Shown one piece after another: positions 16,078-60,106 of a DNA stretch of 64,000 nucleotides. The stretch spans positions 1-64,000 of the forward strand of contig CALXBN010000030.1 of assembly GCA_944386555.1 (NCBI GenBank). The letters run 5' to 3'. Under the pieces are notes generated by a model. That model was not told the origin of the DNA. It saw only the letters and a list, made by a program, of their open reading frames with translations, and made no database searches. Numbering within the stretch: position 1 is the stretch's first letter; every line of letters begins with the position of its first letter. The DNA is from an uncultured Ruthenibacterium sp. (GTDB taxonomy: Bacteria; Bacillota; Clostridia; Oscillospirales; Ruminococcaceae). Both the position numbers and the translations under genes were made by a program.

Positions 16078-16106
16078 TCGACGCCGTGCGCCGCTTGTGA
16101 TATACT
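16078..16106 (+). promoter_or_regulatory. Promoter of the GTPase-NYN gene
   Basis: TCGACG and TATACT are 17 bases apart and TGA precedes the -10 hexamer, giving an extended -10. The leader is only about 30 bases, so there is no room for the attenuator found before classical tetM. Confidence 0.55.
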
Positions 16107-16141
16107 AAATCATATTATGCCTTTACTGGAGGAGGATCTTC

Positions 16142-18793
16142 ATGGGCCAACAGGCCAACGTGCCAAACCCCATCAAGCGGCTGGTGATCGGCGTACTGGC
16201 CCATGTAGACTCGGGCAAAACGACGCTGAGCGAGGCCCTTTTGTATAAAACCGGCGCCGTGCGCCGGCTGGGCCGGGTGGATCACCGGGATGCTTTCCTG
16301 GATACCGATGCACTGGAACGGGCACGGGGCATCACCATCTTCGCCAAACAGGCCGTACTGCAGCTGCCCGGCACCCAGGTGACCCTGCTGGACACCCCGG
16401 GCCATGTGGATTTTTCCGCCGAGGCCGAGCGGGCACTGCAGGTGATGGACTATGCGGTGCTGGTGGTGAGCGGCACCGACGGCGTGCAGAGCCACACCGA
16501 GACCCTGTGGCGCCTGCTGGCCCGTTACCGGGTACCTGTGTTCCTGTTTGTAAACAAGATGGATCTGGCCGGGGCCGACCGCACCCTGCGCCTGGCTGAG
16601 CTGCGCCGGCAGCTGGGAGACGGTTGTGTGGATTTCACCGTACCGGACCCGGCTGTGCTGGCCGAAGAGCTGGCCCTGTGCAGTGAAAGCCTGCTGGAGA
16701 CCGTGGCCGCCGGCGGTATGCCTGATGACAGCCAGATCGCCGCTGCCGTGGCCCGCAGGGAAGTGTTCCCGGTATTTTTCGGTGCGGCGCTGAAACTGGA
16801 AGGCGTGGACAGCCTTCTGAATGCTTTGGCCCGGCTGACGATACAGCCGCCGGCGGGGCCCGCCTTCGGCGCCCGGGTGTTCAAAGTGACACGGGACGAT
16901 GCCGGCGCCCGGCTGACCTGGCTGAAAGTGACCGGCGGGCAGCTGGATGTGAAAGACGAACTGTGCGCCCGCCCCGATGCCCGTAAAGCCTGGCAGGGAA
17001 AGGCCGACCAGCTGCGCGTGTACACAGGGGAAAAATTCCGCATGATAAGCCGGGCACTGCCCGGGGATGTGGTGGCCGTGACGGGCCCGGCCGACACCTG
17101 GCCCGGCGAGGGGCTGGGCTGCGAGGCCGACGCCCCGGCGCCGGTGCTGGAGCCGGTGCTGCGCTACCGGGTACAGCTGCCCCCGCAGGCCGACGCGCAC
17201 AAAGCGCTGGAGCAGCTGCGCCAGCTGGAGCAGGAGGACCCCCAGCTGCATGTTGTGTGGGACCAGCGCCTTGCCCAGCTGCACCTGCAGCTGATGGGCG
17301 AAGTGCAGCTGGAGGTGGTGCAGAGCCTGCTGGCACGGCGCTTCGGCCTGGATGTTACCTTCGATGAAGGGGGCATTCTGTACAAGGAAACGCTGCGCAC
17401 CCCGGTAGAGGGCGTGGGGCATTATGAGCCCTTGCGCCACTATGCCGAAGTACATCTGCTTTTGGAGCCGGGGGCCCCGGGCAGCGGCGTGCAGATCGCC
17501 TCCGGATGCCGGGAGGACGACTTGGCCGCCAACTGGCAGCGCCTGGTGCTGACCCATCTGGCGGAGAAGACCCATCTGGGCCCGCTGACCGGCGCACCCC
17601 TGACGGACGTGAAGATCACCCTGGCCGCCGGCCGCGCCCACCCCAAGCACACCGAGGGCGGCGACTTCCGCCAGGCCACCTACCGGGCCGTGCGCCAGGG
17701 CCTGCGCATGGCCATGGCTGCCGGCAGCTGCGTTCTGCTGGAGCCCTGGTACCAGTTCACCCTGCACCTGCCTGCCGACGCCCTGGGCCGGGCCCTGGCG
17801 GATATGCCGCGGCTGTGTGCGGAATTTGACCCGCCCCTTGCCCAGGGGCAGAGCGCGGTGCTGACAGGCCGCGCACCGGTGGCCTGCCTTCGGGGCTATG
17901 CCCGCCAGGTAGCCGCCTACACCAAGGGGCGCGGCCAGCTGGCCTGCCTGCCCGCAGGATATGCGCCCTGCCACAACGCCCAGGAAGTGATCGACGCCGC
18001 CGGTTATGATGCCGACGCCGATGTGGAGAACACCGCTGACTCCATCTTCTGCAGCCATGGCGCCGGGGTGCTGGTGCGCTGGGACGAGGTACCTGCCAAG
18101 ATGCACCTGCCCAGCGTGCTGGCCCGCAGCCGGCGCCTGGCCAGCCAGGAGGCTGAACAGACGGACGGCGACGACCGGGCCCCCGAAGCCAAGGCCCGCC
18201 GGGCGGCCGCTTACCGGGCCACCCTGGCCGCAGACAAAGAGCTGATGGCCATTTTCGAGCGCACCTACGGGCCCATCCGCCGGGACGAGCGGGACGCCCT
18301 GCGCACAGCCAAAACGCCCCGTCCCGCCAGCAGCGCCAAACCCGCCCGGCCCATGCCCGCCGGGCCGGAATATCTTTTGGTGGACGGGTACAATGTGATC
18401 TTCTCCTGGGAAGAGCTGAAAGCCCTGGCCGCAGGCAGCCTGGAGGCCGCCCGCCAGCGCCTGGCGGACATTTTGTGCAATTATGCGGGCTACCGCCGGT
18501 GCATCCCCATCCTGGTGTTTGACGCCTACAAAGTAAAAGGCGGTATGGGGTCGGTGGAACAGTATCACAACCTGTACATCGTGTACACCAAAGAGGCCGA
18601 AACCGCTGACATGTACATTGAAAAAGCCACCCATCGCCTGGCAAAAGAGCATCTGACCCGGGTGGTCACCTCCGACGCCACCGAACAGATCATCATCCTG
18701 GGCGGCGGTGCGCTGCGGGTGTCCTCCCGCGCCTTTCAGGACGAGGTCAAAGCGGTGGACGCCGAAATCCGGGAGTTCCTTGCCGGCAGCTGA
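16142..18793 (+). CDS. TetM/EF-G-like translational GTPase fused to a YacP/Rae1-like NYN nuclease domain
   Basis: Residues 1 to about 680 form a ribosomal-protection-type translation factor. Visible elements are G1 AHVDSGKT (20-27), G2 RARGITI (60-66), G3 DTPGHVDF (84-91), G4 NKMD (138-141), and EF-G-like domains II to V. A charged, Pro/Ala-rich linker (about 690-740) leads to a C-terminal NYN/PIN-like domain (743-883) starting LLVDGYNVIFSW, with further acidic residues in LVFDAYKVKGG, EAETADMYIE and VVTSDATEQ. This is the YacP/Rae1 family, whose Bacillus member cuts mRNA in the ribosomal A site. The fusion suggests GTPase-guided delivery of an RNase to ribosomes; that role is inference. It is unlikely to be a mobile tetracycline-resistance gene: it has no tetM leader and matches local base composition. 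GGAGGAGG precedes the ATG. Confidence 0.88.
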   Translation: MGQQANVPNPIKRLVIGVLAHVDSGKTTLSEALLYKTGAVRRLGRVDHRDAFLDTDALERARGITIFAKQAVLQLPGTQVTLLDTPGHVDFSAEAERALQVMDYAVLVVSGTDGVQSHTETLWRLLARYRVPVFLFVNKMDLAGADRTLRLAELRRQLGDGCVDFTVPDPAVLAEELALCSESLLETVAAGGMPDDSQIAAAVARREVFPVFFGAALKLEGVDSLLNALARLTIQPPAGPAFGARVFKVTRDDAGARLTWLKVTGGQLDVKDELCARPDARKAWQGKADQLRVYTGEKFRMISRALPGDVVAVTGPADTWPGEGLGCEADAPAPVLEPVLRYRVQLPPQADAHKALEQLRQLEQEDPQLHVVWDQRLAQLHLQLMGEVQLEVVQSLLARRFGLDVTFDEGGILYKETLRTPVEGVGHYEPLRHYAEVHLLLEPGAPGSGVQIASGCREDDLAANWQRLVLTHLAEKTHLGPLTGAPLTDVKITLAAGRAHPKHTEGGDFRQATYRAVRQGLRMAMAAGSCVLLEPWYQFTLHLPADALGRALADMPRLCAEFDPPLAQGQSAVLTGRAPVACLRGYARQVAAYTKGRGQLACLPAGYAPCHNAQEVIDAAGYDADADVENTADSIFCSHGAGVLVRWDEVPAKMHLPSVLARSRRLASQEAEQTDGDDRAPEAKARRAAAYRATLAADKELMAIFERTYGPIRRDERDALRTAKTPRPASSAKPARPMPAGPEYLLVDGYNVIFSWEELKALAAGSLEAARQRLADILCNYAGYRRCIPILVFDAYKVKGGMGSVEQYHNLYIVYTKEAETADMYIEKATHRLAKEHLTRVVTSDATEQIIILGGGALRVSSRAFQDEVKAVDAEIREFLAGS

Positions 18794-18840
18794 GGGCTCT
18801 TCTCTCCCCTTTTCCCAACTTTTCTTTTTTCATGGAAAAC

Positions 18841-18882
18841 AGCGGCCCGCCCGGGCGTTTCCCGGGCGGGCCGCTGTGTTTT
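18841..18882. terminator. Bidirectional terminator between convergent genes
   Basis: A perfect 15-bp GC-rich stem with a five-base loop is flanked by A and T tracts on both sides (AAAAC before, GTGTTTT after). It serves the GTPase-NYN gene on the plus strand and the GNAT gene on the minus strand. Confidence 0.85.
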
Positions 18883-23504: not shown

Positions 23505-26009
23505 TCAGCGGATGTAGCGCCCCGTCAGGCTGTCCGGGCAGGCGGCCACCTGGGCGGGGGTGCCGGCGGCCACCACCCGGCCGCCCTCTTCCCCGCCGCC
23601 GGGGCCCATGTCGATGACATAGTCGGCACAGCGGATCACATCCAGGTCATGTTCGATGACTACCACGGTGGCTCCCTGGCCAATCAGCGTGCGGAACACC
23701 GACAGCAGCGTGCGCACGTCCAGCGGATGCAGGCCAATGGTCGGCTCATCGAATACGAACACCGTATCCCCCTGGCCGCGGCCCATCTCACTGGCCCGCG
23801 TCAGCCGCTGGGCGTCACCGCCGGACAGGCTGGGCGTGGCCTCGCCCAAGGTCAGGTAGCCCAGGCCCAAATCGTCCAGCACCTGCAGGCGCCGGTGCAC
23901 CAGGGGCAGCTTTTCGCAGGCCGAAAGGGCCGTGTGCACATCCATGGCCATCAGCCCCGGCAGCGTAAAAGTGCGCCCGTCCCCCACGGGATAGTGCACC
24001 CGGCCTGCCTCGGGGGCATAGCGGCTGCCCCGGCAGGCAGGGCATGGAATGTCCACATCGGGCAAGAACTGCACATCCAGGCTGATCTGCCCGGTGCCGT
24101 CACACACAGGGCAGCGCAGCCTGCCGGTATTATAGGAAAAATCCCCTGCCTTGTACCCCAAAGCCCGGGCGTCCGATGTGCGGGCGAAAATCTTGCGCAG
24201 CTCGTCATGGACATCGGCGTAAGTGGCCACGGTGGAGCGCACATTGATGCCGATGGGCGTGGCGTCGATAAGGCGGACCCGGGCGATGCCGGGAGCGTCC
24301 AGAGCTTTCACATGGGCCGGCAGGGGTGTGCCGGCCGCAGAGGCCTCCAGGGCGGGCACCAGGCTCTCCAGGATCAGCGTGGTTTTGCCTGAGCCGGACA
24401 CGCCGGTAACCGCCGTGAGCCGCCCCTTGGGGATGCACACCTCCAACGGGTGCACCGTGTGGACGGGCCCGGTGGACAGGCGGATGGCTCCCCGGGCAAA
24501 CAGTTCTTCCTCCAGATGTGCCGGTGCCGGCAGCACGTGGGCCCCCAGCAGAAAGGGGCCGATTTTGGAGGCCGGGTCGGCGGCCAACGCCGCCGCGGTG
24601 CCCTCTGCCAGCACCCGCCCCCCGTCCGCGCCGGCGCCGGGGCCCATTTCGATGATCCAGTCGGCCCGGGACAGCACCTGGGTATCATGGTCCACCAGCA
24701 GCACCGAATTGCCGTCGGCCACAAGATCATCCATCACTCCCACCAGCCCTTCGATATTGGCCGGATGCAGGCCGATGGAGGGTTCGTCCAGCACATACAG
24801 CACGCCGGTGGTGCGGTTGCGCACGGCCCGTGCCAGCTGCATGCGCTGGCGCTCGCCTGTGGAAAGGGTGGAGGCGGCGCGGTCCAGCGTAAGGTAAGAC
24901 AAGCCCAGATCCATCAGGCGGCGGGCGGCCGTATCAAAGCTCTGGCAAATGCTGCGCGCCATGGGCTGCATCTCGGCGGGCAGGCTGCCGGGCACACCTG
25001 CCACCCATTGCATCAGGGCCCGCAGGGTCATCCGGCAGGCCTCATCCAGCCCGATGCCCCGCAGGCGGGGCGCCCGGGCCGCGGGAGACAGGCGGGTGCC
25101 GGCGCAATCGGGGCAGACATCCTCTTTCAAAAAGCGTTCCACCCGCTTCATGCCCTTCTCGTCCTTCACCTTGGCCAGAGCATTTTCCACCGTGCGCACC
25201 GCGCTGTAATAAGTAAAATCCAGTTCGGCGGTATTTTCCGTATTTTTTGCCCGGTACAGAATATGCCTTTTTTCCGCAGGGCCGTCATATACAATGGCTT
25301 TTTCCCCGTCGGTCAGGTCCTTGAACGGTACGTTGGTGCGCACACCCATCGCGCGGCACACGTCGGTCATCAGCGACCACATCAGGCTGTTCCAGGGGGC
25401 CACGGCGCCCTGGTCGATGGTCAGGCTTTCATCGGGCACCAAACTGGCACGGTCCACCGCGCGCACCACACCGGTGCCCGCACAGGTGCGGCAGGCACCC
25501 TGGCTGTTGAAGGCCAGTTCTTCGGCGCCGGGGCCGTAAAAATGCACGCCACACACCGGGCAGGTGATCTGCTGGCCGGCAGCCACCGCCAGACTGGGCG
25601 GCGCGTAGTGGCCGTTGGGGCACCGGTGGGAGGCCAGCCGGGAGAACATCAGCCGCAGGCTGTTGAGCAGTTCGGTGCCCGTACCGAAGGTGCTGCGGAT
25701 CCCCGGCACGCCGGGGCGCTGGCGCAATGCCAGGGCCGCCGGCACATAGCGCACATCGTCCACGTCGGCCTAGGCGGCCTGGGTCATGCGGCGGCGCGTA
25801 TAGGTAGACAGAGCATCCAGATACCGCCGCGAACCCTCGGCATACAGCACACCCAGCGCCAGGCTGGACTTGCCCGAACCGGACACCCCGGCCACGCCCA
25901 CCACACGGCCCAGGGGAATATCCACATCCACGTTTTTCAAATTGTGCACCCGCGCCCCCCGCACCTCAATGGCGCGGGGGGCAGGCCCCTGCCTTTGGCT
26001 GCTGTACAT
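23505..26009 (-). pseudogene. UvrA paralog (UvrA2-like ABC ATPase) interrupted by an in-frame amber codon
   Basis: Two open segments in the same frame (ATG 26009 to the stop at 25770-25772, then 25763 to 23505) together give about 834 residues of a UvrA-type protein: Walker A GVSGSGKS at 41-48, the YVPAALALRQRP and GIRSTFGTGTE segments, several CxxC zinc pairs (CPNGHY, CPVCG, CPDCAGTR, CPVCDGTG, CPACRGSRY), a second Walker A VSGSGKTTL and two signature/Walker B sets. It is the shorter UvrA class without the UvrB-binding insert, often linked to drug self-protection. TAG stands after residue 79 (MTQAA) with no frameshift. A GTG at 25763 could restart translation, but the product would lack the first Walker A. 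No promoter is obvious between the tRNA terminator and the start. A sequencing error cannot be excluded. Confidence 0.8.
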
Positions 26010-35575: not shown

Positions 35576-35916
35576 TGAGACAGTCGGTATTGCAGCAAAG
35601 CGGCGGGCCGCGCCCGCCGGCCCCCCGCCCGGGCATAATGCCGCCCAAAGCGCCCAAAGGGCCCTGCAGCCTGAAAACAGAGTTCATTCAGCAAATACTG
35701 TTACCACTCTTATTGACCGTTTTACAAGTTGATGCACACGCAATGGTTATAAAGTAACCAACTTATAAAATTGAGCTTTTAACTCAATCAATAATGGCGG
35801 CTTTATGCCGCCGATCGGCAGTTGACCCGGCTGTCCGTATGGCCTTGCCCCTTCCGGGGGGTCGTGAACATATTTGCATGGATACTCTGTCAAAGCTCAT
35901 ATCACATGTCAGGTTT

Positions 35917-59786: not shown

Positions 59787-60106
59787 TTTGTTCGCCTCCT
59801 TAAAATTTTCCGTGGGGCGGATCGATAAATACTGAACACTGCGCCGGGTGTTTCACGCCTTGGCATCAGAAAAGCCGGTGAACCGACATGCAGTTCCCCC
59901 GGACAGACCTTCGCAAAGTGCGCGGACATTGGTTGAGCCGAGACAGGTCATCGGCCAACGTATCCCTTTGCATCCAGTATTCTTTCGCCCGGTTCTTTGA
60001 TCGGACATACTCGGCGGAAAAACCGGTGTGAGTAACTACACCGCAACCTCCCGCGTCAACGCATATCGCGGCCCGTGCCCCGAAAAGCTCGGGCCAATCG
60101 CAGCCA
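59787..60106 (-). promoter_or_regulatory. Leader of the S10 operon (about 320 bases)
   Basis: No convincing gene lies between the promoter at 60113-60141 and rpsJ. The minus strand is rich in local hairpins, such as GGCCCGAGC/TTTTCGGGGC near the 5' end and CCGGTTTTTCCGCC-type pairings. S10 leaders in other bacteria carry ribosomal-protein autoregulation sites. I cannot assign the ligand from sequence. Confidence 0.5.

Follow-up and report, generated by a model that had tools for sequence, protein, structure and literature searches.

An EF-G-like GTPase fused to a Rae1-type NYN nuclease takes the place of standalone Rae1 in Clostridia

The plus-strand gene at positions 16142..18793 of the window, by which we mean the whole stretch of 64,000 nucleotides analysed, encodes a protein of 883 residues in which an EF-G-like GTPase is joined to a NYN nuclease of the Rae1/YacP type, as judged from its ORF and Pfam matches. 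Fused and standalone Rae1 are mutually exclusive in all but one genome, and the fusion has replaced the standalone cutter across Clostridia. The best reading of our results, which as a whole we hold to be correct with a probability of roughly 55%, is that the fusion protein serves its lineage as Rae1, guided to the ribosome by a GTPase half that would replace the C-terminal tail of Rae1 as a docking device, and that it cuts mRNA in the A site. The same fusion was noted previously in ten Clostridiales, in which it was called a Tet protein, and a new mechanism of resistance was suggested for it on architecture alone (Atkinson et al. 2015, PMC4342817). The present protein has the architecture of those TetM-like/NYN_YacP fusions and is one of them, but whereas they were given the Tet label, we place them in a subfamily of their own, which takes over from standalone Rae1. 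Thus, the architecture was already on record; the separate subfamily, its single origin, the replacement of Rae1 and the lost tail are new as far as the literature was searched, and that search found no functional study of the fusion.

The reading frame opens with ATG, 6 nt downstream of a strong ribosome binding site, GGAGGAGG (16128..16135, plus strand, read from the sequence). Further upstream, a consensus scan indicated a putative promoter, TCGACG-17-TATACT with TG before the second hexamer (16078..16106, plus strand), which is a consensus match only (9 of 12 positions), and an intrinsic terminator with a 17-pair stem was found downstream of the gene by a sequence scan (18839..18877, plus strand). 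The presence of both signals indicates that the gene is monocistronic. Its leader, of about 30 nt, is too short for a TetM-type attenuator; none was seen in it, and Rfam gave no match there. No recurrent neighbours or operon appeared across 84 fused and 18 unfused loci, and the neighbours in the window (genes of a DUF3267 peptidase, a GNAT protein, MnmA and RNase J) show no specific link to the fusion. A long minus-strand frame in the list of open reading frames overlaps the gene and most likely just reflects high G+C; the dN/dS of the plus frame is low.

The survey of conservation proposed in the preliminary description revealed more than 100 full-length homologues with the same GTPase–NYN architecture. 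An assembly or annotation artefact was ruled out, as the identical fusion occurs in more than 100 genomes. In the scan of named genomes alone, 80 full-length homologues turned up, of which one in Gemmiger was the nearest (77% identity), so that a Gemmiger-like bacterium is the probable source of the window; the gene is present in nine of the ten other genomes of its genus, the sole exception being 71% complete. A phage origin was also considered and rejected: the two full-length matches labelled as phage are UNVERIFIED clones from metagenomes and probably bacterial DNA. These 'Bacteriophage sp.' records from human faeces (MT835563 and MT835514; L200 and L201) carry full-length fusion genes and are probably a bacterial contamination of phage databases. 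In one genome, G277, an in-frame TAG interrupts the fused gene (L194, 4241-6964), leaving frames of 288 and 618 residues, which may represent a decaying copy or a recoded stop. The fusion protein matched no PADLOC model of anti-phage defence.

The GTPase unit comprises residues 1-656 (16142..18109, plus strand; Pfam, alignment and structure match), which is the full length of unfused orthologues. As the preliminary description had it, EF-G-type domains are followed by a complete NYN domain: Pfam found GTP_EFTU at residues 15-232 (4e-49), EF-G_D2 at 243-317 (2e-5, slightly below its cut-off), EFG_III at 337-407, EFG_IV at 412-524 (17375..17713, plus strand; PF03764, 1.6e-15) and EFG_C at 531-613, five domains in order, and then PF05991 with 150.7 bits. 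The G domain (16184..16837, plus strand; PF00009, 4.1e-49) contains AHVDSGKT, RGITI, DTPGH and NKMD, all invariant or nearly so. Motifs G1 to G4, reported earlier as intact, are indeed intact and conserved in 113 relatives, and the catalytic His of DTPGH is invariant. The GTPase half has, accordingly, the five-domain fold and the G motifs of the EF-G/EF-2 superfamily. When residues 6-626 were compared with ribosome-bound EF-G, a VIA Z of 40.8 and an rmsd of 10.7 over 610 residues were obtained, which in the model would correspond to the same domains in a different arrangement. The unfused relatives end at the equivalent of residue 656 or so, after the motif ...W...MHC; therefore, the GTPase unit ends near residue 656 and not at 680, as had been proposed, and the fusion joins a GTPase in its entirety, through a linker, to the core of a nuclease. 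With elongation factor G the GTPase half shares the fold, the G motifs and a His at the tip of domain IV, but it has a domain IV tip and a C-terminal extension of its own, and its score with the EF-G equivalog model TIGR00484 was 248 bits, below the cut-off of 659. The extension (residues 606-656; 17957..18109, plus strand) is specific to the subfamily and contains the invariant residues C610, C637, W647 and H655. Three of them, C610, C637 and H655, possibly form a metal site that EF-G and TetM do not have; in most unfused relatives another Cys follows the equivalent of H655.

The NYN domain (residues 743-880; 18368..18781, plus strand; PF05991, 4.8e-44) contains D748, N751, D794, D823 and D845. 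The profile comparison of the C-terminus that had been suggested earlier was significant (5e-44), NYN_YacP matching residues 745-878 far above its cut-off of 24.6 bits. Since EF-G took up the Foldseek/VIA list for the whole model, which therefore revealed nothing about NYN, residues 740-883 were folded alone with AlphaFold (pLDDT 89.7). This model matched B. subtilis Rae1 (PDB 5mq9) with a Z of 19.9 and an rmsd of 1.9 over 132 aligned residues, and the next different protein had a Z of 8.8. The several acidic residues pointed out previously proved to be the catalytic aspartates of Rae1: counted on the alignment, D748, D794, D823 and D845 correspond to D7, D53, D81 and D104. Their loss across homologues, which had been named as a refutation, was not seen, as all four are retained in 150 or more of the 151 fused NYN domains. 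Moreover, of 27 positions that are about 93% or more conserved in standalone Rae1, 26 keep the same majority residue in the fusions. B. subtilis Rae1 (YacP, PDB 5MQ8/5MQ9) and the fusion thus have in common the NYN fold (42% identity over 132 residues), the four catalytic aspartates and the occurrence as a single copy per genome; however, the B. subtilis protein is a standalone one of about 170 residues, co-transcribed with rlmB (yacO), whereas the NYN domain of the fusion is joined to a GTPase and encoded elsewhere.

In the AlphaFold model of the whole fusion (mean pLDDT 89.4, pTM 0.73), the two halves are connected by predicted linker helices 659-678 and 682-709 (18116..18268, plus strand), ending in the conserved motif DKELMAIFERTYGP, which is present in 100 of 113 fusions, and by a flexible tether of residues 710-741 (18269..18364, plus strand; pLDDT mostly 42-56). 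Judging from the number of its residues, about 30, the tether could extend roughly 100 Å. Both the GTPase and the NYN half are under purifying selection (dN/dS about 0.15-0.27), and selection is relaxed in residues 656-743 (0.48-0.70 in the linker).

A PF05991 protein above the cut-off was found in 248 of 391 Clostridia genomes, nearly always in a single copy, and in about 127 of the Clostridia genomes, counted by hand, it was the fused form. More than one copy above the cut-off occurred only in G190, which has two fusions and is 61% complete, and in G385, which has a fused and a standalone form; second matches in G193, G257 and G298 were below the cut-off. Among the 63 listed genomes with standalone Rae1, only G385 also had the fusion. 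The single-copy rule was seen again when 299 genomes were sampled from the phylum, with the exception of G662, which has two copies of equal score. The order of genes in G245, rlmB-rae1-sigH, the last of which we take from its sequence to be sigH, is the ancestral one. In the fused genomes G085 and G403, sigH directly follows rlmB with no rae1 between them and the fused gene is far away, while in G012 another gene follows rlmB; at the window locus neither rlmB nor sigH adjoins the fusion gene, and fused genes sit elsewhere. The rlmB-sigH order devoid of rae1, taken together with the single-copy rule, indicates that standalone rae1 was lost where the fusion is present. In the genome of the window itself (G000; C8, C58, C6), the assembly of which is 93% complete, nothing scores above the TIGR00186 cut-off for RlmB; a match above it was found in the other seven genomes checked.

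The fused NYN domains differ from standalone Rae1 at their end. The [LF]ExxRR tail, a criterion set in this analysis, is universal in the standalone members examined: the C-terminal motif [LF][EDQ]x[IWLMV]R[RKL] is present in all 27 of them, in 26 with RR or RK. Among 149 fusions, 148 lack the tail motif (LExxRR), and the sole match looks accidental. In B. subtilis Rae1, which has the motif, it corresponds to residues 161-166, so that position 164, altered in the crystal 5MQ9 (W164L), and R166 lie within it. The R166P change in B. subtilis rae1 was isolated as a loss-of-function suppressor allele (PMC6613710). The loss of the motif suggests, at the level of sequence, that the fused NYN domain depends on its GTPase partner, and it is simplest to infer that the task of the lost tail, probably docking, has passed to the GTPase.

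One fusion event fits the trees of both domains. On the NYN tree, two changes of label between fused and standalone are required; the standalone Rae1 of G299 falls near the fused ones with weak support, and as this genome also has an unfused GTPase, it may be close to the pre-fusion state. In the GTPase tree, the fused clade has 16 unfused clostridial GTPases as its sister group and also takes in the copies of Ligilactobacillus salivarius, the position of which indicates transfer and the loss of the nuclease. The unfused members of the subfamily, from Clostridium-like genomes and L. salivarius megaplasmids, are 41-48% identical to the GTPase half end to end, share its signature motifs, stop at the point at which the linker begins, lack the nuclease, and are annotated as translation factor GTPase family protein. 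Seven of the surveyed genomes have the unfused GTPase only, with no PF05991 protein, and of the 63 listed genomes with standalone Rae1, 14 have the unfused GTPase and 49 do not. The P value calculated for co-occurrence took no account of phylogeny and was based on a rounded count of fused genomes, and it can serve only as an indication. Thus, neither half needs the other. Nor is the fusion gene essential, since near-complete genomes of some lineages lack it altogether. On the L. salivarius megaplasmids of two strains, the unfused GTPase gene (L172, 3536-5926; L199, 3535-5926) is divergent from an adjacent rpsN (S14) gene and a small 'putative metal homeostasis' gene, a setting that possibly links it to the remodelling of ribosomes when metal is limiting.

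B. subtilis Rae1 needs no GTPase of this kind for its function, and we know of no characterised translational GTPase with a built-in mRNA nuclease. Rae1 acts in the ribosomal A site (PMC6613710, PMC10100781, PMC12320835), in which it cuts mRNA in a translation-dependent way (PMC10100781). The A site is also where EF-G/TetM factors bind, TetM with its domain IV (PMC7456112). In a ribosome-guided Rae1, the GTPase half would recognise ribosomes by their factor-binding centre when the A site is vacant or unproductive, and domain IV would probe or clear the decoding centre; upon the hydrolysis of GTP domain IV would withdraw, and the NYN domain, on its tether of about 30 residues, could then reach the A site and cut the mRNA, which would start its decay and let rescue factors work. 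We infer the binding to the ribosome, the gating by GTP, the order of events and the takeover of the docking role of the tail. As the A site has no room for both a nuclease and domain IV of a bound factor, binding and cutting would have to be sequential or to take place on different ribosomes, and this clash favours the sequence dock, probe or clear, hydrolyse, leave, cut. The same clash, together with the lineages that have only one of the halves, argues for caution about the GTPase-guided reading. Its strictest form, a GTP-gated ribosomal endonuclease in which the EF-G-like half selects stalled ribosomes and, as GTP is hydrolysed, hands an A site cleared by domain IV to the tethered nuclease, is a tentative proposal that we would sooner doubt than accept.

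Three other explanations assign the halves different tasks. The two could act independently, the GTPase in a translation role of its own and the NYN domain as an ordinary Rae1, with the fusion only linking their expression and placing both near ribosomes. Each half does occur alone in other genomes, the tether is long, flexible and under relaxed selection, and the conservation of the NYN surface follows that of standalone Rae1; this is nevertheless unlikely, as the fused form, after its one origin, has remained the sole Rae1 of a large clade, a conserved helix adjoins the tether, and the loss of the tail motif suggests a dependence on the partner. A close rival to the preferred reading, although we judge it rather less probable than independent action, is that cleavage of the mRNA by the NYN domain comes first and is followed by the splitting or recycling of the stalled ribosome by the EF-G-like half, by analogy to EF-G with RRF or to mitochondrial EF-G2. 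Such an order of events would solve the clash in the A site, and it would suit the completeness of the EF-G fold, in which domains III to V are present, and the good structural matches, among them mitochondrial EF-G2 on 39S subunits. However, these matches extend to the whole EF-G superfamily and do not single out recycling factors, and unfused relatives without a nuclease exist. It is improbable that the nuclease acts on rRNA or tRNA, in maturation or quality control, and that the GTPase brings it to assembling or damaged ribosomes: standalone rae1 adjoins rlmB, an rRNA methyltransferase gene, and a passage of PMC4342817 cites an original prediction that NYN domains serve rRNA or tRNA maturation, but in Rae1, the orthologue that has been characterised, cleavage is of mRNA and depends on translation (PMC10100781).

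Just as improbable is a ribosomal-protection protein against tetracycline that has gained an RNase, representing a new mode of resistance (Atkinson et al. 2015). Even though some members are named TetM/TetW/TetO/TetS family by NCBI and the best NCBIfam model is tet_protect, its score is 382.7 bits against a cut-off of 775, that of the Tet(M) model is 202 bits against 1420, and the unfused GTPase relatives are likewise below the tet_protect cut-off; the comparison with ribosomal-protection profiles that had been suggested thus failed to place the GTPase half among them. In a tree with few reference rows and long branches, the fused and unfused relatives formed one clade (support 100), and TetM/O/W together with an OtrA-like protein another (98). 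The tip loop of domain IV, GRAHPKHTEGGDFR (residues 497-510; 17630..17671, plus strand; alignment), stands in place of GLYYSPVSTPADFR of TetM. Ser508, Pro509 and Val510 of TetM, which displace the drug, are at the tip of loop 3 of domain IV, and Pro509 overlaps bound tetracycline (PMC7456112); the TetM encoded by plasmid AP031235 has SPVST at 508. These three residues align with P501-K502-H503 of the fusion, of which K502 and H503 are invariant in 81 fusions. Membership in TetM was ruled out by the cut-off, the tree and the tip loop. TetM, TetO, TetW and OtrA, like the GTPase half, are EF-G-derived factors of five domains and about 640 residues, but with about 28-32% identity to it they differ in the domain IV tip and the C-terminal extension; unlike the fusion, they lack a nuclease and are often located on plasmids and other mobile elements. 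The gene is widespread in its genus and class, and this genus-wide presence lowers the probability of a role in resistance. Taken together, these results uphold the earlier warning that a tetracycline resistance label would be misleading, and of the original designation as a TetM/EF-G-like GTPase they retain the EF-G-type factor but not the TetM part, as the subfamily is a sister group with another domain IV tip.

The fusion ties Rae1 to a GTPase in nature, so that the way in which Rae1 enters the ribosome could be tested by removing either half, and among gut bacteria a large group now has it in place of Rae1. In gut commensals, some of these genes, widespread as they are, carry the annotation of tetracycline resistance, a misleading label that is corrected here and that may inflate the counts of resistance genes in microbiome surveys. 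Elsewhere in the window, positions 23508-25763 encode a UvrA-like ABC protein of 752 residues, shorter than standard UvrA, with a UvrA DNA-binding domain; positions 35815-35864 match the Streptococcus sRNA family SpF59 of Rfam (62.8 bits), in what is a clostridial genome; and an S10-Clostridia ribosomal protein leader (Rfam RF03136) is present at 59985-60067.
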